64,000 nt of DNA from Galactobacter valiniphilus. GTDB lineage: Bacteria > Actinomycetota > Actinomycetes > Actinomycetales > Micrococcaceae. Location: contig NZ_QQXK01000013.1 of NCBI RefSeq assembly GCF_003575975.1, forward strand, positions 1 through 64,000, in the 5' to 3' direction. Position numbers and translations under genes: made by a program. Below the pieces are notes generated by a model. That model had not been told where the DNA came from and made no database searches. It saw only the letters and a program-made list of their open reading frames with translations. The stretch's first letter is position 1, and every line of letters starts with the position of its first letter. Of this stretch, positions 33,923 through 46,010 are shown one piece after another.

Positions 33923-34140
33923 GGGGGCGTTCTCCGTTTCAGGTCTGCCGCGCCGGCAGTTTCACCGGCGCGAACACCCCCTTTTGCACCGCGTTCGCAG
34001 GATTCTCTTCGGGAGATTCCGGCGGCGTCGGGGGACGAACTCCGAGAACGTTACCCCACCCGTGACCAATCCGTGATCTAAAAATCACGGCCTCAACACG
34101 GTGTGTGCAACGTTTTCCTTGCGATCACTGGGATGCGCGT

Positions 34141-34156
34141 TGTGAGTGAACTCACA
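34141..34156. promoter_or_regulatory. CRP/GlxR-type binding site upstream of rpf
   Basis: TGTGAGTGAACTCACA is a perfect 16-bp palindrome and an exact TGTGA-N6-TCACA consensus. It lies about 219 bases before the rpf start. In Mycobacterium and Corynebacterium, rpf genes are under CRP/GlxR control, which supports the assignment. Confidence 0.7.
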
Positions 34157-34217
34157 GAAAGACCTGGCGTGTCACGTCACGATCTCGAGATCTTTCGAGA
34201 GCAAGGAGACGCGCCGC

Positions 34218-34247
34218 GGGGTGGCTCCGCAAAGGCGGAACCACCCC
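34218..34247 (-). terminator. Terminator of the lipoprotein gene
   Basis: A 13-bp stem with one mismatch (34218-34230 with 34235-34247) and AAAG as the loop follows the stop codon at 34267 by about 20 bases. Confidence 0.75.
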
Positions 34248-34266
34248 CTCGGACAAGGCCCGGCGA

Positions 34267-34698
34267 CTACTTGAGCTTGCAAGCCTTGTCGATGTTCTCC
34301 GTGGCCTTCTTGAACTCATCGCCGTTCATCTTGGTGGAGAGCTCGGTGATCTTGGCGGCAGACTCGGTGGCCTTCGCGGGATCGGCCTTCACGTCGGCAA
34401 CCACAGCGCCGAGCTGCGAGAAGAGGTCGCCCACGGTGGCGAAGTCCTTCGCGACGTCGCCGGAGCCCTTCCCAATCTCGACCATCTTGTCGCCGACGGC
34501 CTTGAGCTTGGTCGGATCCTGGCCGAGCTCCTGGCCCGAGGCGTTGTCAAAGCTCTCGACGCCGTTCGCCTTCAAGACATCCTTGAAGGAATCGCAGGCG
34601 GCCTGGTTGGCATTGCCACCACCACAGGCGGTCAGCGTTGCGGCCAGGGCAAGGGTGGCGACGCCACCGGCAATCTTGGACAGGGTGTTCTTCTTCAA
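34267..34698 (-). CDS. Small secreted lipoprotein of unknown function
   Basis: The protein (143 aa) has a lipoprotein signal: MKKNTLSKIAGGVATLALAA followed by the lipobox LTAC, with the modified Cys at about residue 25, then GGGNANQ as a flexible linker. The mature part is helical and rich in Lys/Ala/Asp, with Cys at about 35 and 140 that may form a disulfide joining both ends. It is monocistronic and sits between rpf and alkaline phosphatase. I recognise no further family. It is anchored on the outside of the membrane. Confidence 0.8.
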   Translation of the reverse strand: MKKNTLSKIAGGVATLALAATLTACGGGNANQAACDSFKDVLKANGVESFDNASGQELGQDPTKLKAVGDKMVEIGKGSGDVAKDFATVGDLFSQLGAVVADVKADPAKATESAAKITELSTKMNGDEFKKATENIDKACKLK

Positions 34699-34769
34699 GG
34701 GAGGTCCCCCACTTTCCTGAAATGTCGAAGAGATGACAGCGTCAGCCTACGCGAGACATGTGTCGATGC

Positions 34770-36245
34770 CTATCGGAGCTCGCCGCCCGCCCCCAGCCCC
34801 AGCGCCCGCTGCACGGTAAAGAAGAGGTCGGTCTGGTCGCTCAGACCCACCACGTTGGCGGCCTGCGGGCCGTAGCCGGCGATGCGCACCTGGGAGCCGG
34901 TGTGCATCTGTGAGCCACCCTCGTCGGAGGTGCCGTAGGCGACCGTGAGCGGCGCACCCTCGTTGGTCGTGAGCGTGCGGGTCAGGCCCAGCGTGGTCTC
35001 GCCGGGGTAGACGATCTGCGAGGAGTGCGCGTGATCCGCCGTCACCACCACGAGCGTGTTCTTATCCTTCTTCGCGAACTCCAGGGCCACCTGGATGGCC
35101 TCGTCGATCTGCACGGTCTCCCCGATCTGACCGCACGGGTTCGCGGCGTGGTCTTCCTTATCGATCGAGGCCGACTCCACCTGCAGGAAGAAGCCCTTCT
35201 CGTTGTTCTTCTTGTTCAGCAGCGAGATGGCTTTGCTCGTCATGTCCTCGAGCCGCGGGGTCTTGCTCGTGAGGGCCGGATTGTCAGCACACCGCACGGC
35301 CGGCTCCTTGCCGCCCGTGCGCGTGGCCTTGGGGCCCTGCCAGTCCACGGGCATATTCCCCTGCGAGAAGAGCCCTAGCACCGGCTTGGACTGGTTGGCT
35401 TTGGAAACGCGGTTCAGCTGCGAGCGGTCGGTGACCACCTGGTAACCCTCGGCCGTGGCCTGCTCCAGGAGCGTCTTGCCCTTGTACTTGCCCGCCGTTG
35501 CGGTCTGGGCGAAGCTCTTGGCGCCCCCGCCCAGGGTCACGTCCGCGCGTGTGGCGATGAGCTGCTCGGTGATGGAGCCGCGGCCGCCGTTCTCGAGCGC
35601 GTTGGTGGGGCACTTGGCGGTGGTTTCCACGGGGCCGTAGCAAGAGCGAGCCGTGACGTGCGAGGCCTGGACGGCGGGGGTGGCGTCCTGCAGTTCGGCC
35701 GAGGAGACGTTGCCCGTGCGCAGTCCCTTCTCCTTGGCCAGCTCCAGGAGCGTCTTCTGCGCCTTGCCCTTGATGTCAACGGAAATGGCGTTGTTGTAGG
35801 TCTTGGTGCCCGTGGCCCAGCCGGAGCCGGAGGCCGCGGAGTCCGTCACGTAGTCGGGCTTGCCCGTGGCCTTATCCAGCGCGTAGGTCGTGTACTGGCC
35901 CGTCAGCGGCAGCGCGTCGAGGCCCGGGAAGCGCCCCGCGGCGCCGTACTGGTAGTTGCGCGCCACCGTGATCTCGGAGTCGCCCATGCCGTCGCCGATG
36001 ATGAGGATGACGTTCATGGCGGAGCTGCCGTCGATCGCCTTGCGCAGCTCCTTGCTGCGGTCACCGTCGTTGCGGGCGGCGCCGCCGTGCTGCGTGATGT
36101 CACTCGTGGTCGGCTGGACGTTTTTGGTGGCGGGGAGGGGAGCCGCGGTGGGCTGTCCGGTCGCCGCGGTCGCGGCGGCTGCACCACCGGCCAGGGCGGC
36201 CACGACAGCGGCCACCGTGAGCGTGCGGGAGAGCGTCTTGTTCAT
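34770..36245 (-). CDS. phoA: Secreted alkaline phosphatase
   Basis: The protein (491 aa) has a Sec signal peptide ending near residue 29 (ATA-A). The core shows [18 protein letters not shown] with the metal Asp. [20 protein letters not shown] carries the phosphorylated nucleophile Ser. [20 protein letters not shown] and [13 protein letters not shown] supply the zinc/magnesium Glu, Asp and His. It releases phosphate from organic esters outside the cell. The ATG at 36245 with GAAGGA upstream is preferred over GTG 36260. A PhoP box is not evident upstream, though GGTTCACAG is a possible half-site. Confidence 0.94.
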
Positions 36246-36522
36246 GACTGCGTCCTTCACCTCTTGAGCAGGAGCGGGCCGGGCCCGCGGATGACGCCCC
36301 CCACTGTGAACCCGCCCGGCAACATCCCCGCCCAGTCAAAGCAAACGACGTGTGAATTCACTCAGCGCCGACCTTGGCTCAGTGACCACCACCCCCATGT
36401 GCAAAGTGTCGATTCGATGCCGAAACTTCAGCGCAATGCCCATTTCTGAGGGTCGGTTCCTTGCTTAGCGTGGGAACCATCTCGCCCGGCGGCGCTGCCG
36501 CCTTGAACCCCCAGGAGGCCCC
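36246..36522. other. Divergent control region of phoA and the hydantoin-type operon
   Basis: The gap drives phoA leftward and the permease operon rightward. It contains a 10-bp perfect palindrome GTGAATTCAC (36352-36361) and one GGTTCACAG-like half-site on the minus strand, which may relate to PhoP or PucR control. No gene is seen. Confidence 0.4.
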
Positions 36523-37860
36523 ATGGCCCAGCTTGCCCACGCTGATGATGCCGCCCTCAGCCGCGTTGCCCCGCGCGATCAGAAGCATTGGTTCGGCATT
36601 GCCGTGCAACGCTTCGGCCAGGTCTCCGCGCTCTCCCAATTCCTGCTCGGCGCCACGCTCGGTTTCGGCATGACCTTCTGGCAGGCAGCGCTCGCGCTCC
36701 TGCTCGGCTCGGTCATCCTCGAGGTCCTCATGTGCATCGTGGGCATCATCGGCCAGCGCGAAGGACTCAACACTGCGCTGCTGGCGCGCTGGACCGGTTT
36801 CGGCGAGATCGGCGCCTCGCTCGTCGGTCTGGCCGTGGGTATCAGCCTCATCGGCTGGTTCGGCATCCAGTCGGCCATCTCTGCCCAGTCGCTCGACGCG
36901 ATGATGCCCGGCGTCATGCCCGTGTGGCTCTGGAGCTTGCTCTTCGGTCTGCTCGTCACCGCCATCGTCGCCTTCGGATTCAAGGGCATGCAGTGGCTCG
37001 CCAACGTCACGGTTCCGCTCTTCCTGGTGCTCGTCGGCTGGTCGGTCATCTCCGAGCTCAGCAAGCACTCGTTCTCCGAGCTGCTCTCCTCCCCTGCCCC
37101 CGGTCCGAGCATCAGCATCTGGGCCGGCACCGGCATCGTCGCGGGCGGCCTCATCGTTGGGGCGATCATCACCGCCGACATGACCCGCTACAACCGCTCC
37201 GCCGCCGACGTCGTCAAGCAGACGGTCGTGGGCGTCAGCTTGGGCGAGTTCGGCATTGGCCTGGCCGGTGTCCTCCTGGCTCACGCGGCCGCCAGCGGAG
37301 ACATCGTCGCCATCGTCACCTCATCCGTCGGCTTCGTCGGCCTGATCATCGTTATCACCGGCACACTGAAGATCAACGACTGGAACCTCTATTCCTCCTC
37401 CCTCGGCCTCGTGAATTTCATCGCCACGACCTTCCGCAAGCAGGTCAGCCGCGTGCCCTTCACGATCATCCTCGGCGTGGTGGGCTCGGTCCTCGCGGCG
37501 GCTGGCATCCTCGGAAAGTTCACCGACTTCCTCGTGGTGCTCAGCGTGGCCTTCCCGCCCATCGCGGGCATCATGGTCGCCGAGTACTTCATCGTGAAGC
37601 GCTGGCGCCCCGAGCTGGACGCCACGCGCGACTCCGGCGCCCTGCCGACCACCGCGCCGCGCGTCGTCCCGGCCACGCTGGTCATCTGGCTGATCTCGGC
37701 CGTGGTGGGCTACGTCGTCACGTGGGGAATCCCCTCGCTCTGGTCCCTCCTGCTCTCCATGCTGTTGTACATCGCGGCGGGCAAGCTCGGCCTGGTGTGC
37801 GGCGTGGGACAGGCGGCCACCGCCGACGCCACGACCACCGCCCCGATCGCCGCTCACTGA
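36523..37860 (+). CDS. NCS1-family permease (cytosine/hydantoin-type transporter)
   Basis: The protein (445 aa) has 12 membrane segments. DQKHWFGIAVQRFGQVSALS in the N-terminal region and GTGIVAGGLIVGAIITADMT with the TRYNRSAADVV loop are typical of the CodB branch. The NDWNLYSSSLGLVNF segment matches the substrate-coupling helix. The strong SD AGGAGG lies five bases before the ATG. It is first of six co-oriented genes: permease, HyuA-type hydrolase, three DUF917 proteins and a PucR regulator. Its cargo is therefore probably the operon substrate, a hydantoin-, purine- or pyrimidine-like ring. Confidence 0.92.
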   Translation: MAQLAHADDAALSRVAPRDQKHWFGIAVQRFGQVSALSQFLLGATLGFGMTFWQAALALLLGSVILEVLMCIVGIIGQREGLNTALLARWTGFGEIGASLVGLAVGISLIGWFGIQSAISAQSLDAMMPGVMPVWLWSLLFGLLVTAIVAFGFKGMQWLANVTVPLFLVLVGWSVISELSKHSFSELLSSPAPGPSISIWAGTGIVAGGLIVGAIITADMTRYNRSAADVVKQTVVGVSLGEFGIGLAGVLLAHAAASGDIVAIVTSSVGFVGLIIVITGTLKINDWNLYSSSLGLVNFIATTFRKQVSRVPFTIILGVVGSVLAAAGILGKFTDFLVVLSVAFPPIAGIMVAEYFIVKRWRPELDATRDSGALPTTAPRVVPATLVIWLISAVVGYVVTWGIPSLWSLLLSMLLYIAAGKLGLVCGVGQAATADATTTAPIAAH

Positions 37861-37905
37861 CCCCTCACCTCCCCTCCTCGTTTAGTTCAGCGAAAGAAGA
37901 AGCAC

Positions 37906-39465
37906 ATGCACATCGGCATCGACGTTGGCGGAACCAACACCGACGCGGTCCTCATGGACGGGCGCACCACGCTCGCGGGCGTGAAGAACTCCACCAGCTC
38001 CGACGTGACCAGCGGCATCGTGGCCGCCATCGAAGCGCTGCGCGGCGACCATGCCTTCGAAGGCCACGAGATCTCCGCCGTGATGATCGGCACCACGCAC
38101 TTCATCAACGCCCTCGTCGAGGCCAGGCGCCTGGCCCCCACGGCCGCCGTCCGGCTCGGCCTCCCGGCCACTGCTGCGCTGCCGCCGCTCGTCGACTGGC
38201 CGGACACGCTGCTCGAGGCGATCCATGCCAAGAGCTACCTCGCGCACGGCGGCTACGAGTTCGACGGTCGCCCCATCTCACCCCTGGATCCCGAGGAACT
38301 GCGCGGTATCGCCGCCGACATGGCGGCCAACGGCATCCGCTCCGTCGCCGTCTCCTCCGTCTTCAGCCCCGTCAACCACGACCTCGAGGTGCAGGCGGCC
38401 CAAATCCTCTCCGAGGTGCTCGGCGACGGCGTCGCCATCTCGCTCTCGCACGAGATCGGCCGCATCGGGATCCTGGAGCGCGAGAACGCCACGATCATCA
38501 ACGCGGCGTTGCGCGAATTGGCCGGCGAGATCGTCGACGGCCTGACCGCCGCGGTCCGCGCCCAGGGAATCGAGGCCCCCATCTTCCTGAGCCAGAACGA
38601 CGGCACGCTCATGGACGAGGACTACGTGCGCCAGTACCCGGTGGCCACCTTCGCCTCCGGCCCGACCAACTCGATGCGCGGCGCCGCCCAGACTTCGGGG
38701 CTGGCCACGTGCGCCGTCATCGACGTGGGAGGCACCACGGCCGACATCGGCCTGCTCATCAACGGCTTCCCCCGTGAGACCGCCAACGAGGTCAAGGTCG
38801 CTGGCATCCGCACCAACTTCCGCATGCCGGACGTGCTCTCGCTCGGCATCGGCGGCGGGTCCATCGTGAACCCCGACACCGCCGAGGTGGGGCCGGAGTC
38901 CGTGGGCTATCGCTTGAGCACCGAGGCGCTCGTGTTCGGCGGCTCCACTCTGACGGCGACCGACATCGCTGTGGCCGCCGGGCGCGCGAGCGTTGGCGAC
39001 GCGAGCAAGGTGGCCCACCTTGACCCCGAGCTCGTCCAGCGCGTCCTCGCCCGCATTGCCGAACGCGTCTCCGAAGCCGTGGACCGCATGCGCACCTCCC
39101 CCGAGCCGCTCCCCGTGGTCGCCGTGGGCGGCGGGTCCATCCTGCTGCCGGACGAGCTGCCGCTCTTCGGGACGGTGCACCGCCCCGAGAACTACGCCGT
39201 GGCCAACGCCATCGGCGCCTCGATCGCCCAGGTTGGCGGCGAGATCGACAAGGTCTACGCCGTGGAACCGGGGCGCCGCGAAGAGACGATCGCCGACGTC
39301 CGTGCCGAGGCAGTCAACAAGGCCATCGCCGCCGGCGCCGCGCCGGATTCCGTCGTCATCGTCGACTTCGACGAGGTGCCCATCCCTTATCTGCCTGGCA
39401 ACGCCACGCGCCTCCGTGTCAAGGCCGTGGGCGATCTCGACATGAACACGGGGGTGCAGGCATGA
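37906..39465 (+). CDS. Hydantoinase/oxoprolinase family protein (short HyuA type)
   Basis: The protein (519 aa) belongs to the actin/hexokinase-fold ATP-dependent amidohydrolases. The first phosphate loop is IGIDVGGTNTDAVLMDG at residues 3-19, the second is CAVIDVGGTTADIGL, and VVAVGGGSILLPDEL holds the adenosine motif. Full-size HyuA is near 690 residues and pairs with HyuB; this short form has no HyuB in the window and is instead overlapped by DUF917 genes. It likely opens a hydantoin ring with ATP. The stop overlaps the next start by ATGA. Confidence 0.9.
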   Translation: MHIGIDVGGTNTDAVLMDGRTTLAGVKNSTSSDVTSGIVAAIEALRGDHAFEGHEISAVMIGTTHFINALVEARRLAPTAAVRLGLPATAALPPLVDWPDTLLEAIHAKSYLAHGGYEFDGRPISPLDPEELRGIAADMAANGIRSVAVSSVFSPVNHDLEVQAAQILSEVLGDGVAISLSHEIGRIGILERENATIINAALRELAGEIVDGLTAAVRAQGIEAPIFLSQNDGTLMDEDYVRQYPVATFASGPTNSMRGAAQTSGLATCAVIDVGGTTADIGLLINGFPRETANEVKVAGIRTNFRMPDVLSLGIGGGSIVNPDTAEVGPESVGYRLSTEALVFGGSTLTATDIAVAAGRASVGDASKVAHLDPELVQRVLARIAERVSEAVDRMRTSPEPLPVVAVGGGSILLPDELPLFGTVHRPENYAVANAIGASIAQVGGEIDKVYAVEPGRREETIADVRAEAVNKAIAAGAAPDSVVIVDFDEVPIPYLPGNATRLRVKAVGDLDMNTGVQA

Positions 39466-40568
39466 GCTGGATCCTTGACGCCGGGCGCGTCGAAGACATC
39501 GCCCGCGGTGCGGCACTGCTCGGCACGGGCGGCGGCGGAGACCCCTACATCGGTGCCCTGCTCGCCCGCCAGGCGCTGGCCGAACACGGCCCCGTGACCG
39601 CGGTGACCCTCGAAGAGGTGCCCGACGACGCAGTCGTGCTCACCGTTGCCATGATGGGCGCCCCCACCGTGATGGTGGAGAAGCTGCCGAGCCTCAAGGA
39701 AGTCATGGCCCCCGTGCGCGCCGTGGGCGAGTACCTGGGTCGCCCTGTGACGCACGTGGCCTGCGCCGAGGTGGGCGGGGTGAACTCCACGATTCCCATC
39801 GCCGCCGCAGCAGCGCTGGGCCTGCCGCTCATCGACGCCGACGGCATGGGCCGCGCCTTCCCCGAGCTGCAAATGGTGCTCCCCACCCTCTACGGCGTCA
39901 CGGCCTCGCCCCTGGCCCTCGCCGATGAGAAGGGGAATGTCTCCGTCCTGAACACCGTGGACAACACCTGGACCGAGCGGATCGCCCGCGTAGCCTGCGT
40001 GGAGATGGGTTGCTCCGTCATAATCTCCGGCTTCCCCATGGATGGTGCCACGGCCAGGGCCGCCCTGGTTCCGGACTCCCTGAGCCACTGCGGCAACATC
40101 GGATCCGCGATCCTGGCCGCCCGAGAGGAGAAGCGCGACCCAGTCGGCGCCATCGTCGAGTTGGTGCGCGGCCGCGAACTCTTTGGCGGCAAGGTGGTCG
40201 ATGTCCAGCGCGGCACCACTGCCGGCTTCGCCCGCGGCCGGGCACGCATCGAGGCTGGGAGCGGCGCGGAGGCGAGCGCCCTCGAGCTCAACTTCCAGAA
40301 CGAGCACCTCGTGGCCCGCACCGACACCAAGGTGCTCGTCACTGCGCCGGATCTGATCATGGTGGTCGACCACGACTCCGGTGAACCGATCACCACGGAG
40401 GCGCTGCGCTACGGCCAGCGCGTGCGTGTCCTCGCGGCGCCGTCGGATCCGCGCTGGCACCAGCCGGAGGCCCTGGCCATGGTGGGGCCCCGCTACTTCG
40501 GCTACGAGATGCCATCGCACCGCTGGGACGGCAGTACCGATCCCGAGCCGGCGACGGTGGCCTCATGA
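39462..40568 (+). CDS. DUF917 protein 1 (S-methyl-thiohydantoin desulfurase family)
   Basis: The protein is 368 aa. The N-terminal signature ARGAALLGTGGGGDPYIGAL is followed by MMGAPTVMVEKLPS and LIDADGMGRAFPELQM, the conserved DUF917 blocks. A second domain starts near residue 165 and includes FGGKVVDVQRGTTAGFARGR, then a beta-rich end with PDLIMVVDHDSGEPITTEAL. The family name comes from S-methyl thiohydantoin desulfurase activity; the substrate of this member is unknown. The start overlaps the hydantoinase stop and its stop overlaps DUF917 protein 2. Confidence 0.9.
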   Translation: MSWILDAGRVEDIARGAALLGTGGGGDPYIGALLARQALAEHGPVTAVTLEEVPDDAVVLTVAMMGAPTVMVEKLPSLKEVMAPVRAVGEYLGRPVTHVACAEVGGVNSTIPIAAAAALGLPLIDADGMGRAFPELQMVLPTLYGVTASPLALADEKGNVSVLNTVDNTWTERIARVACVEMGCSVIISGFPMDGATARAALVPDSLSHCGNIGSAILAAREEKRDPVGAIVELVRGRELFGGKVVDVQRGTTAGFARGRARIEAGSGAEASALELNFQNEHLVARTDTKVLVTAPDLIMVVDHDSGEPITTEALRYGQRVRVLAAPSDPRWHQPEALAMVGPRYFGYEMPSHRWDGSTDPEPATVAS

Positions 40569-41647
40569 GCTGGCAGCTGCGCGCCGAGGACCTCCCCGAC
40601 CTGGCCCGCGGCGCCACCCTCCTCGGGACGGGCGGCGGCGGTGATCCGTACATCGGCCAAAAGCTCGTTGAGCGGGTGCTCGGCGAGCGCACCATCACGG
40701 TGTGGGATCCCGAGGATGTTCCGGCCGACGCCCTGGTCATTCCCACGGCGCAGATGGGTGCGCCGACCGTCATGGTGGAGAAGATCCCCGCGGGGACCGA
40801 GCCCACCTTGGCACTACGGATGCTCGAAGAGCACCTGGGACGCACGGCGCAGGCCACCATGCCGATCGAGTGCGGGGGCATCAACTCGATGATCCCGCTC
40901 ATCGTCGCGGCGGAGACGGGACTGCCCGTCGTCGATGCCGACGGCATGGGTCGGGCCTTCCCCGAGCTGTCGATGGAGACCTTTGCCGTCTACGGGGTCC
41001 ACGGATCCCCGCTGGCGCTGGCCGGCGAGCGTGGCGAGCGCGTCATCATCGACACCGGTGACGACGATCGGCAGATGGAGTGGCTTGCACGTGGGGTCAC
41101 CATCCGCCTGGGCGGTGTGGGCCACATCGCCGAGTACGCCATGACGGGCGAGCAAGTCCGCGCCACTGCGGTGCCACGCACGCTCTCCATGGCGCTGGCG
41201 CTCGGCCGGGCCATCCGGGAGGCGCGGGAGCGCCACGAGGATCCGTTCGAGGCGATCGCGGCGGCGTTGGCCCCCACGCTCTACAGCCACGTTCGCGAGC
41301 TCTTCCGCGGCAAGGTCGCCGATGTCGAACGGCGCACCACTGAGGGCTTCGCACGCGGCCGGGCGATCATCGAGGCGCCCGAGGGCCAGCAGATGGAGAT
41401 CGATTTTCAGAACGAAAACCTCGTGGCCCGTTGTGGCGGGGCGGTCGTAGCGATCGTGCCCGACCTCATCTGCGTTGTTGATGCGGAGACGGCCGAGCCC
41501 ATCACCACGGAGGGCCTGCGGTACGGCCAGCGCGTGCGCGTGCTCGGCATTTCCACGCCGGAAATCATGCGCACTCCGGAGGCGCTGGCCACGTTTGGCC
41601 CGGCGGCCTTCGGGCTGAGCGAGCCCTTCGTTCCCGTGGAGTCATAG
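40565..41647 (+). CDS. DUF917 protein 2 (S-methyl-thiohydantoin desulfurase family)
   Basis: The protein (360 aa) is closely similar to DUF917 protein 1: ARGATLLGTGGGGDPYIGQK, QMGAPTVMVEKIPAG, VVDADGMGRAFPELSM and FRGKVADVERRTTEGFARGR all match in order. The two therefore arose by tandem duplication but have diverged in the central 100 residues, which suggests a two-subunit complex or two substrates rather than simple gene dosage. ATGA overlap on the left; the 31-base gap on the right contains a possible internal promoter. Confidence 0.9.
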   Translation: MSWQLRAEDLPDLARGATLLGTGGGGDPYIGQKLVERVLGERTITVWDPEDVPADALVIPTAQMGAPTVMVEKIPAGTEPTLALRMLEEHLGRTAQATMPIECGGINSMIPLIVAAETGLPVVDADGMGRAFPELSMETFAVYGVHGSPLALAGERGERVIIDTGDDDRQMEWLARGVTIRLGGVGHIAEYAMTGEQVRATAVPRTLSMALALGRAIREARERHEDPFEAIAAALAPTLYSHVRELFRGKVADVERRTTEGFARGRAIIEAPEGQQMEIDFQNENLVARCGGAVVAIVPDLICVVDAETAEPITTEGLRYGQRVRVLGISTPEIMRTPEALATFGPAAFGLSEPFVPVES

Positions 41648-41666
41648 GCAGCGCTTGGCCGCCGCC

Positions 41667-41672
41667 TAAACT
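41667..41672 (+). promoter_or_regulatory. Possible internal leaderless promoter before DUF917 protein 3
   Basis: TAAACT is followed by six bases and the ATG at 41679. No ribosome site precedes that ATG, and no -35 box is clear. Confidence 0.4.
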
Positions 41673-41678
41673 GAAGCC

Positions 41679-42725
41679 ATGACGAGGACCCTCGGAGCCG
41701 AGCACCTTCCGGTGCTGGCCCGGGGGTTCTCGTGGTTGGGGGCGGGTGGTGGCGGGAACACGCTCACGCTCGAACTGATCCTGGGCCAGCGCAGGCCCTG
41801 GCCGCTCCAGGTTCACGGCGTCCACGAGCTGGACCCTGATACCCCAGCGGTGGCCGTCGGCTACGCGGGCTCCACCTACCTCATGACGGAACGCCTCCCC
41901 GATGCCGCCCTGTTCGCCCCGCTCCTGGCGGCGGCCGAACGCTGGACCGGTACCCCGGCGCGCGCCGTGTGCTCGATGGAGGGCGGCGGGATGAACGGCC
42001 TGACGCCGCTCCTCTTGGCGCCGGAGCTTGCTCTCATTGACGCCGACTTCACGGGCCGCGCCCTCCCCCGCTTCGACCAGATGACCATGTTTGTCGACGA
42101 GGTTCCCGGCCTGCTCGCCTGCGTCTCCACCGGTGCGGGCGGGGTGTGCGTCATCGAGGCGAGTCGCTCCGCGGATGTGGAGTCGCTCGTGCGCGCAGCA
42201 GTGGTCTGCGCCGGCGGGGTGGGCCCCGTGCTCATCGCCGGCTTTACGGTGGGGCAGCTGACCGACCATGCCATCACGGGCGGGATGGAGCGGGCCCTCA
42301 CCTTGGGCCGGGTGGATCTGGGCGGCCCCCCGCTGGAGGTGGCAGCCTCCGTGGGTGGGCGTTACGTGGGCGGCGGCCGCGTGGAGTCGGTGACGGCGGG
42401 CGTGGCGGACCCCTACACCTCCTCCGCGCTCATGGCGGGGGACGACGGCGCGGTCTTGCGTTTGGTCTCCCACACAGAATTCCTGGCGGTGCAGCGCGAC
42501 GGCGAGGCGGTCGCCAGCGCGCCGGAGGTGATCGTCTGCATCGATCCGAGCAGCAACGAGATCCTCGAGGTGCACGGCATTCATCCGGCCCGACGTGTGG
42601 AGATTTTCGCCTTGCCCGCCCCTGCGTGGTGGTCGGCGGCGCCGCACCGCCTGCGCCACGTCACCCCGGCCGCCTATGGCGTGCGGGGCCTGGATCAGGA
42701 CGGAGGATCATGCAGCACACCTTGA
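41679..42725 (+). CDS. DUF917 protein 3, divergent
   Basis: The protein (348 aa) is recognisable as DUF917 from ARGFSWLGAGGGGNTLTLEL at the glycine-rich block and LIDADFTGRALPRFDQM at the second block. The acidic GGGGDPY has become GGGGNTLT and GMGRAFPE has become FTGRALPR. The catalytic or metal-binding residues are thus probably altered, and the protein may be a partner subunit or have a new substrate. It overlaps the PucR gene by 16 bases. Confidence 0.85.
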   Translation: MTRTLGAEHLPVLARGFSWLGAGGGGNTLTLELILGQRRPWPLQVHGVHELDPDTPAVAVGYAGSTYLMTERLPDAALFAPLLAAAERWTGTPARAVCSMEGGGMNGLTPLLLAPELALIDADFTGRALPRFDQMTMFVDEVPGLLACVSTGAGGVCVIEASRSADVESLVRAAVVCAGGVGPVLIAGFTVGQLTDHAITGGMERALTLGRVDLGGPPLEVAASVGGRYVGGGRVESVTAGVADPYTSSALMAGDDGAVLRLVSHTEFLAVQRDGEAVASAPEVIVCIDPSSNEILEVHGIHPARRVEIFALPAPAWWSAAPHRLRHVTPAAYGVRGLDQDGGSCSTP

Positions 42726-44281
42726 ACTTGAGGGCTCTCGTGGCCCACCCCCGCAATGGGGGCCTGCGGTGGATCGAACCGGCCGAGAACGCTGACCTCT
42801 TGGATCCGGTAGATATCCCGTTGCACGACGTCGCTCTAGTCACCTCGGTCGAGGAGCTCCCCTCCCACGGGCCGGCGGAAGCCGTGGGGCCGGGCGCCCC
42901 CGGCCCCGTCGGATCGCTCGTCGTCTTCACCCAACCCCCGCCAGCGGAGCCATGGGAGGCCGACGCGCTCCTGCGCCGGGTGAAGTCGCGCGGGCACGTC
43001 GCCCTAGCCTTCAAGGAACCCGCTGACCTGGGGGCCGGGACTCTGGCCGTGGCCCGCCGCCTCGGCCTTCACGTCTTGGGGTCGGGTGCCCCACTCGCGC
43101 TCGCACGGGCCGCGTGGGAGCTGCAGGGAAATCAGGACGCCCTCACCTTGGGATACGTGCGCAAGGTGGCGCAGTCCGTCGAATACCACGCCGATCATGT
43201 GCAGGATCTGCTGCGCCATCTCGCGGCGAGCGTGGGGCACGGGGTGGCCCTCGTTGACCGCGAAGGCGTCTTGCTGGAGGCCGGTCAACACCTCTCCCCC
43301 GATCTGCACGCGGCCCTCTGCTCCGACGCATGGACTCAGGCGGCCCAGGCCGGGGATACCTCCGGTGCCTCGGTCAGGGTGGAGAGCCCCAGCCGGGAGG
43401 GACTGCGCCTCGTCTTCTTCGACGGAGGCCTGGCCGGCGCGCAGCTCTCGGCCCTCGCGGTGGCCGCCGAAATGGCCATGCCCGCCGTGGCCGCGCGCCT
43501 CCTCATCGACGAGGTGGCCTCAGTCAACAACGCGTCGATCGATTCCGGCCTCATTCGAGATTTCCTCGAGCAGCCGGGCGGCCCCGACTCCGACGTGCGC
43601 CGCCGCATGCACGAGCGCGGTTGGCGCACCTCCGGGGTGCACCTTGGCTTCCGCATTCAGGGGCTCAGCCGGCTCACTCCGCTGGAGCTCCTGCGCAGCG
43701 TTTCCCGTGAAACGGGGGCTTGGGACGTCGACACACACGTGAGCACGGCCGGCCTCGGCGTCATCGGCTGGCTCACCTTTCCCGAGCCGCCCTCCAGCCG
43801 CGAGCTGGAACGCCACACCGGGGCGCTGCGCGAGCTGCACCGGACGTTGCGCCGGTCATTCAACGTCTCCACCGGCGTGGGGACGCCCGAGGCGGGGGCC
43901 GAGGGGCTTGCCTCGAGCCTCGACGCCGCCGGCGAGGCGGCGCGCGTCGCCGCCCATCGCGAGCGCGGCGGGTATTTCCTGCGCATCGACGCCCTCGGCT
44001 TGGAGCAGCTTCTGCTCTCCCGCACGCGCAACGACATCTTTCTCCCCGCCGCGCGTTCGCTCCTACAGCCACTCATCGAGGCCGGCGGCGAGCTTCTTCC
44101 GACGCTCGGTGCCTATCTCGATCACGAGTCCTCCACAGCCGCCACGGCCCACGCGCTCGGGTTTCACCGCAACACGGTGAGCACCAGGATCGAGCGCATC
44201 AAGGACCTCTTGGGCTTGGACCTCGCCGATCCGGACACGCGCCTCGCCGTGCACCTGGCGTTGCGGGCACTGCAAGACTGA
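42710..44281 (+). CDS. PucR-family transcriptional regulator
   Basis: The protein is 523 aa. The N-terminal PucR-type sensor region covers about residues 1-140. A variable middle (about 150-460) resembles the GGDEF-like regulatory domain, with HVSTAGLGVIGWLTFPEPP. The C-terminal helix-turn-helix (about 475-515) has TAATAHALGFHRNTVSTRIE and RIKDLLGLDL. PucR proteins activate purine, allantoin or hydantoin catabolic genes. The ATG at 42710 follows GGAGGATC and lies inside the end of DUF917 protein 3, so it is translated with it. It is last in the operon and probably controls it. Confidence 0.92.
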   Translation: MQHTLNLRALVAHPRNGGLRWIEPAENADLLDPVDIPLHDVALVTSVEELPSHGPAEAVGPGAPGPVGSLVVFTQPPPAEPWEADALLRRVKSRGHVALAFKEPADLGAGTLAVARRLGLHVLGSGAPLALARAAWELQGNQDALTLGYVRKVAQSVEYHADHVQDLLRHLAASVGHGVALVDREGVLLEAGQHLSPDLHAALCSDAWTQAAQAGDTSGASVRVESPSREGLRLVFFDGGLAGAQLSALAVAAEMAMPAVAARLLIDEVASVNNASIDSGLIRDFLEQPGGPDSDVRRRMHERGWRTSGVHLGFRIQGLSRLTPLELLRSVSRETGAWDVDTHVSTAGLGVIGWLTFPEPPSSRELERHTGALRELHRTLRRSFNVSTGVGTPEAGAEGLASSLDAAGEAARVAAHRERGGYFLRIDALGLEQLLLSRTRNDIFLPAARSLLQPLIEAGGELLPTLGAYLDHESSTAATAHALGFHRNTVSTRIERIKDLLGLDLADPDTRLAVHLALRALQD

Positions 44282-44296
44282 GCCGCAGCACGACGG

Positions 44297-44324
44297 CGCC
44301 CTCCCGCCTCCCGGCGGGAGGGCG
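44297..44324 (+). terminator. Terminator of the hydantoin-type operon
   Basis: A perfect 12-bp stem (44297-44308 with 44313-44324) with loop TCCC lies 15 bases after the PucR stop. The left flank overlaps a copy of the gap motif (44288-44298). Confidence 0.8.
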
Positions 44325-44368
44325 TCGCGCGAGTCTCGCGTCGCCTCAGGCGACGCGCGGCTGGGTGC

Positions 44369-45872
44369 TTAGCCCACGCCGTCGAGCATGTCGGTCTCGG
44401 TGTTGCCGATCGCGGAGATCACCTGGGGGCGGCGGGCCCGCAGGAAGACGTACCAGGCCACGGCCACGAGCATCGTGACGAGGAAGAGGTACGGGATCAC
44501 GTTGACGGGGAACGCCGGGACGGGCCACACGTTCGCATAGAAGACGGAGGCCATGCTGACCACGGCGACCGTCGCGCAGATCCACACGAGCGCGTGTTCT
44601 TCATGCCCTCGCGGCGCGTGTAGACCACGCAGGCGATCGCAACGAGCGCGTAGGCCACCATGTACCCGTAGGTGCCGTAGGTGTCCACGTAGACCGTGAT
44701 GTCCATGGGCGCCGTGCCGATCAGCAGCAGGACGATGTCCAGGGCGATCGCGAGCGGGCCGGCGATGAGCAGCACGCGGTGCGGGGTCAGGTGGCGTTCA
44801 TGGGTGCGACCGAAGCTCTCGTGGATCACGCCCTCCTTGCCCATGACGTAAAGGATGCGGCCCACCACGTTGAGCGGGGCCACGACCACGGCGAAGAACG
44901 CGGCGCCGACACCGAAGGTCAGGATCGGGCCGAACCAGGCGGGCATGCGGATGGGCCGAGGTAGGTGCCCGTGACGTCGGAGAGCAGGGTCGCCGAGTGA
45001 TCGGAGGCGACGCCGGCCACGGTGGACTCGCCCACGGCGGTCACGAGGACCCAGCTGGACACGGCGTAGAACACGGCAACGCCGCGGAGGGCCACGTAGG
45101 TGGCGCGCGGGATGGTGCGGCTGGGGTCCTTGGTCTCGTCGCGGAAAACGGCAGTGACCTCGAAGCCCAGGAAGCTCAGGAGCGCGAAGAGAATGGCGAC
45201 TCCCGGGGCACCGGAGAAGATCTGGGAGGGCTGGAAGGCGGCGGTGGAGGGGCCCTCGGGGCCGGAACCGGAGGCGATGACGGCGACGTCGAGCACCACC
45301 ACGATGGCGACCTCGGCGATCAGCAGGATCGCGAGCACCTTCCCGGAGACCGCGATGTTCCCGTAGCCCAGCGCGGCCACGCCGGCGGCGACGAGCAGCG
45401 CCCAGGCCCACCACGGGAGGCTCGGGACGCCGTAGGAGGCCAGGAGCTCCTGGATGCCTGGGCCGATCAGCCCGTAGACGGCGGCCTCGAGCGTCAGGTA
45501 CGTGAGCAGGGCGGCGAAGCCCGTTCCCACGCCGGCTCCGGCGCCGAGGCCCTCGCGGACGTAGGAGGAGAACGCGCCGGCGCGGCGCACATGCGGGGTC
45601 ATGGCTGTGAAGCCCACCGCGAAGAGCGCGAGCACCAGGGCGGCAATCACGAAGGTGGCGGGGAAGGCCGCGCCGTTGCCGAGGGGAACCGGCCCGCCGA
45701 TGACGCCGAGCGGCGAGGCGGCGGCGACCACCATGAAGACGATGGACCATAGGCCGAGGCGGCCGCGCAGGCCGCTCCCGTGTCCGGTGCTTTCGGCGCC
45801 CTGCGGCGCGGGGCCAGCTGCGGCGGGCCGCTGGGCGGCGGTGGTGTGGGACGGAGCGCTCGGCTGAGCCAT
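44369..45872 (-). pseudogene. APC-family amino acid permease with two frameshifts
   Basis: The coding sense runs from MAQPSAPSHTTAAQR (ATG 45872) through about ten membrane helices, but changes frame twice. A base is missing in the G-run 44953-44955, so TYLG is followed out of frame by RMPAWFGPILTFG. Another is missing near 44591-44600, so EGMKNT is followed by LVWICATVAVVSMASVFYAN. Adding one base at each site restores a single 501-residue permease ending NTETDMLDGVG. As sequenced only the N-terminal 310 or so residues are made. Either it is a real loss of function or a pair of homopolymer/GC sequencing errors. Confidence 0.85.
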
Positions 45873-45993
45873 GATTCTCCTCGGCGTGGGTGCGGCCGGG
45901 CCCGATGCCCGGCCCGCTCACGCTACGAAGCGGGCGCCCCGGGCGGAGAACACGTGTTCCCCCACGTCCCCGCGTGACGCTTCCGCGACGCGC

Positions 45994-46010
45994 CCGCCGG
46001 GCCCCGGCGG
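45994..46010 (-). terminator. Weak hairpin after the flavin monooxygenase gene
   Basis: A 7-bp GC stem (45994-46000 with 46004-46010) lies four bases beyond the stop codon. No T-run follows. Confidence 0.35.

Follow-up and report, generated by a model that had tools for sequence, protein, structure and literature searches.

Background

Caprolactamase CapAB, 5-oxoprolinase and N-methylhydantoinase HyuA/HyuB are the closest described systems to the locus reported here. For caprolactamase, the accessible part of the report (PMC8453981) proposes that the A subunit activates the lactim, most simply by phosphorylation, and that the B subunit carries out hydrolysis at a metal, the metal site of HyuB/CapB being given as Asp-His-Asp-His. 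Proteins of the DUF917 family have been suggested, in the accessible part of a survey that used sequence and structure comparison without experiment (PMC11055893), to be hydantoinases hydrolysing hydantoin-like rings. The present locus lies in a stretch of 64,000 nucleotides (nt) of Galactobacter valiniphilus (contig NZ_QQXK01000013.1, positions 1 to 64,000), referred to as the window, and comprises six genes encoding a permease, a short HyuA, three DUF917 proteins (D1, D2 and D3) and a PucR-family regulator. It is probably a PucR-controlled catabolic operon in which HyuA activates a small cyclic imide or lactam and D1 and D2 replace HyuB; the substrate would most likely be a 5-substituted hydantoin-like ring.

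Organization of the operon

The six genes, with product lengths in amino acids (aa), are as follows.

36523..37860 (+): NCS1 / cytosine-permease-like (CodB-like) transporter, 445 aa; Transp_cyt_pur PF02133, 80.3 bits (cut-off 23.5)
37906..39465 (+): short HyuA, ATP-binding subunit, 519 aa; Hydant_A_N and Hydantoinase_A
39462..40568 (+): DUF917 protein D1, 368 aa; S-Me-THD_N and S-Me-THD_C; own clade
40565..41647 (+): DUF917 protein D2, 360 aa; S-Me-THD_N and S-Me-THD_C; own clade
41679..42725 (+): DUF917 protein D3, divergent and fast-evolving, 348 aa; S-Me-THD_N and S-Me-THD_C, with lower scores
42710..44281 (+): PucR-family regulator, 523 aa; HTH_30 and GGDEF_2; 16-base overlap with D3

All six open reading frames that the initial annotation had described as co-oriented were present on the + strand, and their junctions agreed with its description: in gene order, a gap of 45 bases, two ATGA overlaps of 4 bases each, a gap of 31 bases and an overlap of 16 bases. 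The gene identities held as well, Pfam domains being assigned for all six. D1, D2 and D3 exceeded the gathering scores of both PF06032 and PF20906 and thus belong to the DUF917 / S-Me-THD superfamily, D3 with 96 and 69 bits versus 193-224 bits for D1 and D2. The C-terminal HTH_30 domain of the last protein scored 75.7 bits (cut-off 27), which places it among PucR/CdaR-type regulators. The nearest solved chain to the permease was cytosine permease (7qoa, E 1.6e-21), followed by hydantoin permease Mhp1 (E 4e-8).

Conservation of gene order

PF06032 was searched in genome samples at four ranks and matched in 3 of 4 genomes of the genus, 8 of 149 of the family, 35 of 297 of the order and 18 of 396 of the phylum; neighbourhoods of the matches were annotated with the window proteins, two genomes with weak single matches (G670 and G779) being left out. 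Complete six-gene operons were found in 4/149 genomes of the family sample and 10/297 of the order sample, and in the phylum sample (396 genomes) in the source genome only. Named genomes were also scanned with a 12-sequence HyuA alignment, and the best 80 of at least 568 relatives make up the 80 named loci, which lean towards this operon type because they were chosen as closest by HyuA. A gene split into fragments was counted as one (this concerns D or PucR genes in L158, L166, L169 and L188), and two of the contigs recur under a second label (L113 = L193; L112 = L185).

The order permease-HyuA-D1-D2-D3-PucR was present in 51 of the 80 named loci, which include Microbacterium, Leifsonia, Kribbella, Amycolatopsis, Saccharopolyspora, Curtobacterium, Brevibacterium and Microlunatus, and HyuA was followed by D1 or D2 in all 80. 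Variants lacked D2 and kept D3 and PucR (8 loci: L179, L193, L195, L200, L203, L207, L208 and L218), lacked D1 (L202, L205, L211, L214 and L215), or lacked D3 and kept PucR (L209, L213 and L219); several of the remaining incomplete loci were cut by contig ends. Since the order recurs in 51 of 80 loci, the six-gene layout is far beyond chance. The arrangement HyuA-DUF917 x3-PucR, searched across actinobacterial genomes, is therefore conserved, and its wide conservation agrees with the earlier view that one operon combines import of a ring compound and its ATP-driven opening under its own regulator. Three DUF917 copies in one operon had been called unusual, which is correct by prevalence (10/297 in the order, 4/149 in the family and 1/396 in the phylum), but among close relatives of this HyuA they are the normal arrangement.

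HyuA and the absence of HyuB

All 92 HyuA proteins compared were shorter than 560 aa, and 90 of them kept the phosphate motifs P1 and P2 (DxGGTxTD and DxGGT; these definitions and that of the adenosine motif GxxPGP follow the accessible part of PMC8453981). HyuB was searched as PF02538 in 16 genomes carrying this HyuA; the operon is complete in 13 of these. It was found on the operon contig in none of the 16 and was absent from the entire genome in eight, seven of which have the full operon. In the source genome, HyuB occurs only at another locus (contig C88), beside a long HyuA. The same contig carries a second, distant DUF917 gene followed by genes for PucR, long HyuA and HyuB (L066), so the source genome also has a HyuA/HyuB cluster that contains DUF917.

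The pairing of HyuA with DUF917 extends to plasmids. Seventeen annotated plasmid regions were picked by hand, seven from 40 listed of 826 HyuA records and ten from 60 listed of 134 D2 records. HyuA lay beside DUF917 in 16 of these, from Actinomycetota, Bacillota and Proteobacteria, with a small frame between the two in L237; the exception was Sulfitobacter L251, with DUF917 and no HyuA in view. In six regions (Sodalis pSG2, L. plantarum, L. reuteri, L. innocua, Planococcus and Peribacillus) the unit was permease-DUF917-HyuA. The tsetse symbiont Sodalis glossinidius keeps this unit on the 27-kb plasmid pSG2 (L248), and plasmids of Arsenophonus gave a DUF917 match too.

It is mainly because of this absence of HyuB in genomes and of the pairing of HyuA with DUF917, on plasmids too, that DUF917 is proposed as the HyuA partner; the DUF917 proteins would be the obvious substitutes for HyuB. 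Stop-to-stop frames of more than 860 aa, considered as HyuA-DUF917 fusions that would prove interaction, were rejected, HyuA being in another, overlapping frame in the annotated loci.

Three DUF917 paralogues

In a maximum-likelihood tree of 107 DUF917 proteins, D1 (17 rows, support 100/99), D2 (14 rows, 100/97) and D3 (16 rows, 100/98) each formed a clade. Next to the D3 clade stood a clade of 11 other DUF917 proteins (98/88), at least five of them encoded directly before PucR (L062, L063, L064, L066 and L136). D3 evolves faster than D1 and D2, and both the inner order and the placing of the D3 clade are unsure because of long branches in and around D3. D1, D2 and D3 are paralogues of old origin that have been kept separately; a recent tandem duplication was rejected, since each of them groups by position across genera.

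Residues were compared in 188 HyuA-linked DUF917 proteins (86 D1, 74 D2 and 28 single), with D1 numbering. Forty-five positions were common to the three groups at 93% or more in each, and E73, E103, N108, D127, R131, E172, R176, K244, D247, R250 and E281 were kept at 96-100%. D3 retains 21 of the 27 shared positions before residue 244 and 5 of the 18 from 244 on, the 13 lost in the latter part including K244, D247, R250, T312 and R320. Because conserved residues are mostly kept in its N-terminal part and mostly lost in its C-terminal part, D3 is proposed to be a ligand-binding or regulatory subunit acting with PucR, which appears more likely than a third catalyst.

Alternatively, all three could be catalytic in one HyuA-D1-D2-D3 complex, each for a step or a substrate variant, D3 then having no regulatory role. 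The three are indeed encoded in one operon and kept as separate clades, D1 and D2 possess His/Cys sets of their own (His98 in 86/86, Cys101, Cys184, His282 and His333 in D1; Cys104 in 74/74 and Cys300 in D2), and D3 keeps E71, E101, N106, D123, R127, E168, R172 and E267 at 91-100%. Such a complex is nevertheless rather unlikely, as the losses of D3 are concentrated from residue 244 on (13/18 versus 6/27 before), its evolution is faster, and its gene stands directly upstream of that of PucR wherever both were called, a place taken by D1 or D2 only in a few loci lacking D3.

Predicted structures were obtained for D1 and D3 with predicted local distance difference test (pLDDT) scores of 91.9 and 90.8, respectively. 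The sole strong match of both models in structure searches was PDB entry 2o3i, to which D1 aligned with Z 41.0 and a root-mean-square deviation of 2.1 over 336 residues at 28% identity. No HyuB-like fold was among the matches listed for D1 and D3, which does not exclude one.

A putative PucR operator

Alignment of permease upstream regions revealed a repeated palindrome, TGTGCA-N3-TGCACA, occurring twice at a distance of 30/31 bp, which was conspicuous when all spacings between 16 and 59 were compared. The elements upstream of the permease gene in the window are as follows.

36398..36412 (no strand assigned): operator half-site 1, degenerate palindrome TGTGCAAAGTGTCGA, matching the consensus at 9 of 12 bases
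36428..36442 (no strand assigned): operator half-site 2, degenerate palindrome TCAGCGCAATGCCCA, matching the consensus at 8 of 12 bases; spaced 30 bp from the first half-site
36466..36471 (+): possible -10 element TAGCGT (putative), TA kept in 13 of 13 aligned upstream regions

With a threshold of 17 out of a score of 24 and 30 rounds of dinucleotide shuffles as controls, the pair was present in 64 of 81 permease upstream regions, against a shuffle mean of 0.07. Among 404 other promoters of the same loci only three carried it, those of racemase genes in L208 and L216 and of a molybdenum-hydroxylase gene in L214, the last with a score of 17. In L208 the racemase gene stands just before the permease gene, with no pair between them; in L216 it and HyuA are divergent, and the site may belong to either gene. 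The sole pair of 17 or more at 30/31-bp spacing in the 64-kb window was that at 36398/36428, in the operon promoter. Pairs with a score of at least 19 numbered 40 in the 1.38 Mb of named loci, and every one of them lay just upstream of the permease gene, or of the racemase gene preceding it (L208).

The pair was found in 60 of 70 loci with PucR versus 4 of 11 without it (p 0.001; the loci are related and the counts not independent), and three of the four pair-bearing loci without PucR (L155, L162 and L186) are cut by contig ends. In a search for a wider regulon, single sites were not commoner than matches to a reversed-pattern control (0-5 versus 0-8; 26/27 genomes matched). The strict double pattern was matched in 15 of 38 genomes. 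For eleven of these, ten with matches on both strands and G819 with a match on one, the coordinates are those of the promoter of the operon itself; the remaining matches were one-stranded, located elsewhere and as rare as in the control, and no further PucR target emerged. Judged from its distribution, the paired palindrome is likely the PucR operator.

Proposed pathway

The CodB-like permease would import the ring compound, and the short HyuA would activate a ring carbonyl with ATP to give a phosphorylated lactim, the intermediate also suggested for caprolactamase and oxoprolinase. D1 and D2, presumably in a complex with HyuA, would then hydrolyse the activated ring, standing in for HyuB as its partner, and PucR would act at the double palindromic operator upstream of the permease gene, with D3 possibly assisting. 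ATP-driven ring opening, as claimed from the outset, is in keeping with the phosphate motifs kept in 90 of 92 HyuA proteins and with racemase genes in or beside some operons, two of them behind an operator-like pair.

Several observations weigh against this reading. No His or Cys conserved across the DUF917 groups was found in the residue comparison, so that the Asp-His-Asp-His site of HyuB/CapB has no visible equivalent in DUF917, and hydrolysis by DUF917 would have to proceed without a conserved His or Cys. The adenosine motif GxxPGP, as given for caprolactamase, was present in none of the 92 HyuA proteins. Among the eight genomes that lack HyuB, G064 has a completeness of only 85%. On the regulatory side, the window copy of the operator is weak (9 and 8 of 12), and the upstream regions in which the motif was counted are also those that yielded it, independent evidence coming only from the 404 promoters of other genes and from the scan of the whole window. 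Ten of the 70 PucR loci lacked a pair at the threshold of 17, at least two of which (L182 and L187) have a pair of 20 and a miscalled permease start; L194 has the pair, is not at a contig end and shows no PucR in view. The operator in L216 may serve HyuA only, because the racemase gene is divergent from it. Linkage to a racemase is, moreover, a minority trait.

Genomic context and substrate

Genes for Asp/Glu/hydantoin-family racemases were found in at least five of the 80 named loci (L193, L208, L216, L218 and L198, the last partial, at a contig edge and next to HyuA), PF01177 being confirmed for those of L113 = L193, L208, L216 and L218. PF01177-type racemases were also seen in four of the seven HyuA-centred plasmid regions, all four from Alphaproteobacteria, and in one of the ten DUF917-centred regions. 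Because two of the three other operator-bearing promoters are those of racemase genes, a chiral hydantoin-like ring is suggested. The best common denominator would be a cyclic imide or lactam that has a stereocentre, for example a 5-substituted hydantoin. In six loci of Amycolatopsis/Actinocrispum, of which L177 was scanned, a short-chain dehydrogenase gene lies between D2 and D3.

That the substrate is a diketopiperazine (cyclic dipeptide) or a comparable peptide-like cyclic lactam, and not a hydantoin, is improbable. This alternative draws on a plasmid of Alloyangia pacifica (L241) with two HyuA-DUF917 pairs together with ATP-binding cassette (ABC) transport, isoaspartyl peptidase and dipeptidase genes, a set that suggests a cyclic-peptide substrate there, on an AroM gene adjoining DUF917-HyuA in Ketogulonicigenium, and on an M20-peptidase-like gene noted by eye in 4 of 96 loci, outside the operon and some 5-6 kb from HyuA; DUF917, hydantoin-racemase and AroM genes are reported, in the accessible part of PMC11055893, to be enriched beside cyclodipeptide-oxidase-like genes. 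However, the actinobacterial permease is of the CodB/Mhp1 type, the structurally solved relatives of which are named as transporters of cytosine and hydantoin, and no peptidase was seen inside the operons.

A role in histidine or purine breakdown, for example the opening of a hydantoin or imidazolone side product, has a similarly small probability. Genes resembling hutH, hutU and hutI adjoin the operon, divergent from the permease gene, in 5 of the 80 named loci, and molybdenum-hydroxylase genes adjoin HyuA-D2 in L214, where the operator-like pair occurs, and in L215. The hut linkage is confined to Microbacterium and may be one insertion, however, and no such genes were present in the ten frames scanned beside the window operon. 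The hut genes of L184, the locus on which the models were run, pass the canonical models, and a weak hutG-like match was found in L145. In L154, two frames upstream of the hut genes (376-2713, +) resemble, by eye, 5-oxoprolinase PxpA and PxpB/C, which would be a further ring-opening enzyme in the vicinity of the operon.

Desulfurase-like steps and a thiohydantoin substrate from ergothioneine, both envisaged in the initial annotation, found no support. The equivalog cut-offs are 450 bits for S-methyl thiohydantoin desulfurase and 440 bits for thiohydantoin desulfurase (NF058532 and NF058529); D1, D2 and D3 scored 115, 91 and 37 bits with the former model and 78, 75 and 26 bits with the latter. 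The single urocanase of the source genome is an ordinary HutU (865 bits, cut-off 375), and with the two models for a companion (methyl)thiourocanate hydratase it reached 669 and 613 bits, under the cut-offs of 880 and 930. Standalone DUF917 proteins without HyuA in view (L065, L138 and L137) came nearer to the thiohydantoin desulfurase model, with 230-358 bits, still under 440. Five standalone proteins, the three scanned among them, differ from the HyuA-linked set at E73, E103, N108, D127, M129, G130, F133, D247 and other positions, a comparison of few sequences in a distant alignment. A plasmid of Streptomycetaceae NBC_01309 (L235) carries an OsmC gene and an L-cysteine-desulfhydrase-like gene (572 bits, cut-off 600) between D1 and D3; given the latter gene, sulfur chemistry is possible in that branch. 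That DUF917 desulfurases turn a thiohydantoin into hydantoin and H2S, after which HyuA opens the hydantoin, is therefore very improbable, despite the shared Pfam domains and the L235 genes, in view of these low scores, the differing residues, the HutU-type urocanase and the canonical look of the histidine genes in the five Microbacterium loci.

Flanking region

Downstream of the PucR gene, one further element was recorded.

~44295..44326 (+): terminator-like hairpin without a T-run; 64-nt fold, -42.8 kcal/mol, z -3.71

The hairpin is G+C-rich and strong, with 1 of 200 shuffles equally good. The single terminator claimed for the operon was thus recovered as a hairpin but not as a T-run terminator: a simple scan found neither a T-run terminator nor a consensus promoter. 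No riboswitch or other RNA element was detected at gathering threshold within 34000-46000. The neighbouring genes encode alkaline phosphatase, an amino-acid permease, a luciferase-like monooxygenase, a dehydrogenase and TetR, and add nothing to the substrate question. The amino-acid permease gene (44497-45921, -) gave a partial AA_permease_2 match split over three reading frames, which suggests frameshifts, due either to decay into a pseudogene or to sequence errors.

Comparison with known systems

A ring-hydrolase role for DUF917 is already suggested in print, in the accessible part of PMC11055893, and no experimental test of it was found in the accessible DUF917 literature searched, in which DUF917 is seldom named. 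A literature search gave no account of a racemase-oxoprolinase-permease operon or of a hydantoinase-cytosine permease-PucR combination, a weak result, most subscription journals lying outside the search. New here are the genome-level pairing of HyuA with DUF917 in the absence of HyuB, the three-clade structure of DUF917 and the operator. More broadly, and tentatively, short HyuA plus DUF917 may constitute a second, so far unrecognised class of ATP-dependent hydrolase for cyclic amides, with the DUF917 fold replacing HyuB and with members in Actinomycetota, Bacillota and Proteobacteria. In its actinobacterial form the tasks of DUF917 would be divided, D1 and D2 being catalytic and D3 a pseudo-enzyme that senses the compound and signals to PucR.

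In three phyla, HyuA-DUF917 pairs are present both in chromosomes and on plasmids. If DUF917 does replace HyuB, a large unassigned family would gain a function, and the name desulfurase on its HyuA-linked members could be corrected. The operon offers a clean test case, eight genomes having this HyuA and no detectable HyuB, and with a defined operator the identity of the inducer would reveal the substrate.

Caprolactamase CapAB, 5-oxoprolinase and N-methylhydantoinase HyuA/HyuB share with the operon a homologous ATP-binding A subunit with DxGGTxTD and DxGGT, and ATP activation of a ring amide is likely common to them. The A subunit of the operon differs in having 519 aa, with matches to Hydant_A_N and to part of Hydantoinase_A alone and no GxxPGP. 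A B subunit is missing from the operon and often from the whole genome, with DUF917 in its place. MSMEI_3879, considered as the same system, was rejected as a shortened member of the long HyuA type, as far as the accessible part of PMC10433963 goes. With the S-methyl thiohydantoin and thiohydantoin desulfurases, D1-D3 have both Pfam domains in common, whereas their scores are far under the equivalog cut-offs, their conserved residues are others, and DUF917 is tied to HyuA in 80/80 named loci. The accessible part of the DUF917 survey (PMC11055893) does not mention HyuA, replacement of HyuB, three paralogues or PucR control. The Chromobacterium violaceum protein CV_3147 (2o3i), whose entry is titled only as a structural-genomics protein, shares its fold with D1 and D3. 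Cassettes of Bacillota, on plasmids of L. plantarum, L. reuteri and L. innocua, share a permease, one DUF917 and one HyuA; C. difficile (CDR20291_1615-1617) and Lactobacillus rhamnosus have permease, DUF917 and HyuA as well, their adjacency being deduced from consecutive numbers in the accessible parts of PMC12915319 and PMC7513527. Unlike the actinobacterial operon, these plasmid cassettes have one DUF917 instead of three and no D3, and PucR is upstream (L245 and L246) or was not seen (L244).

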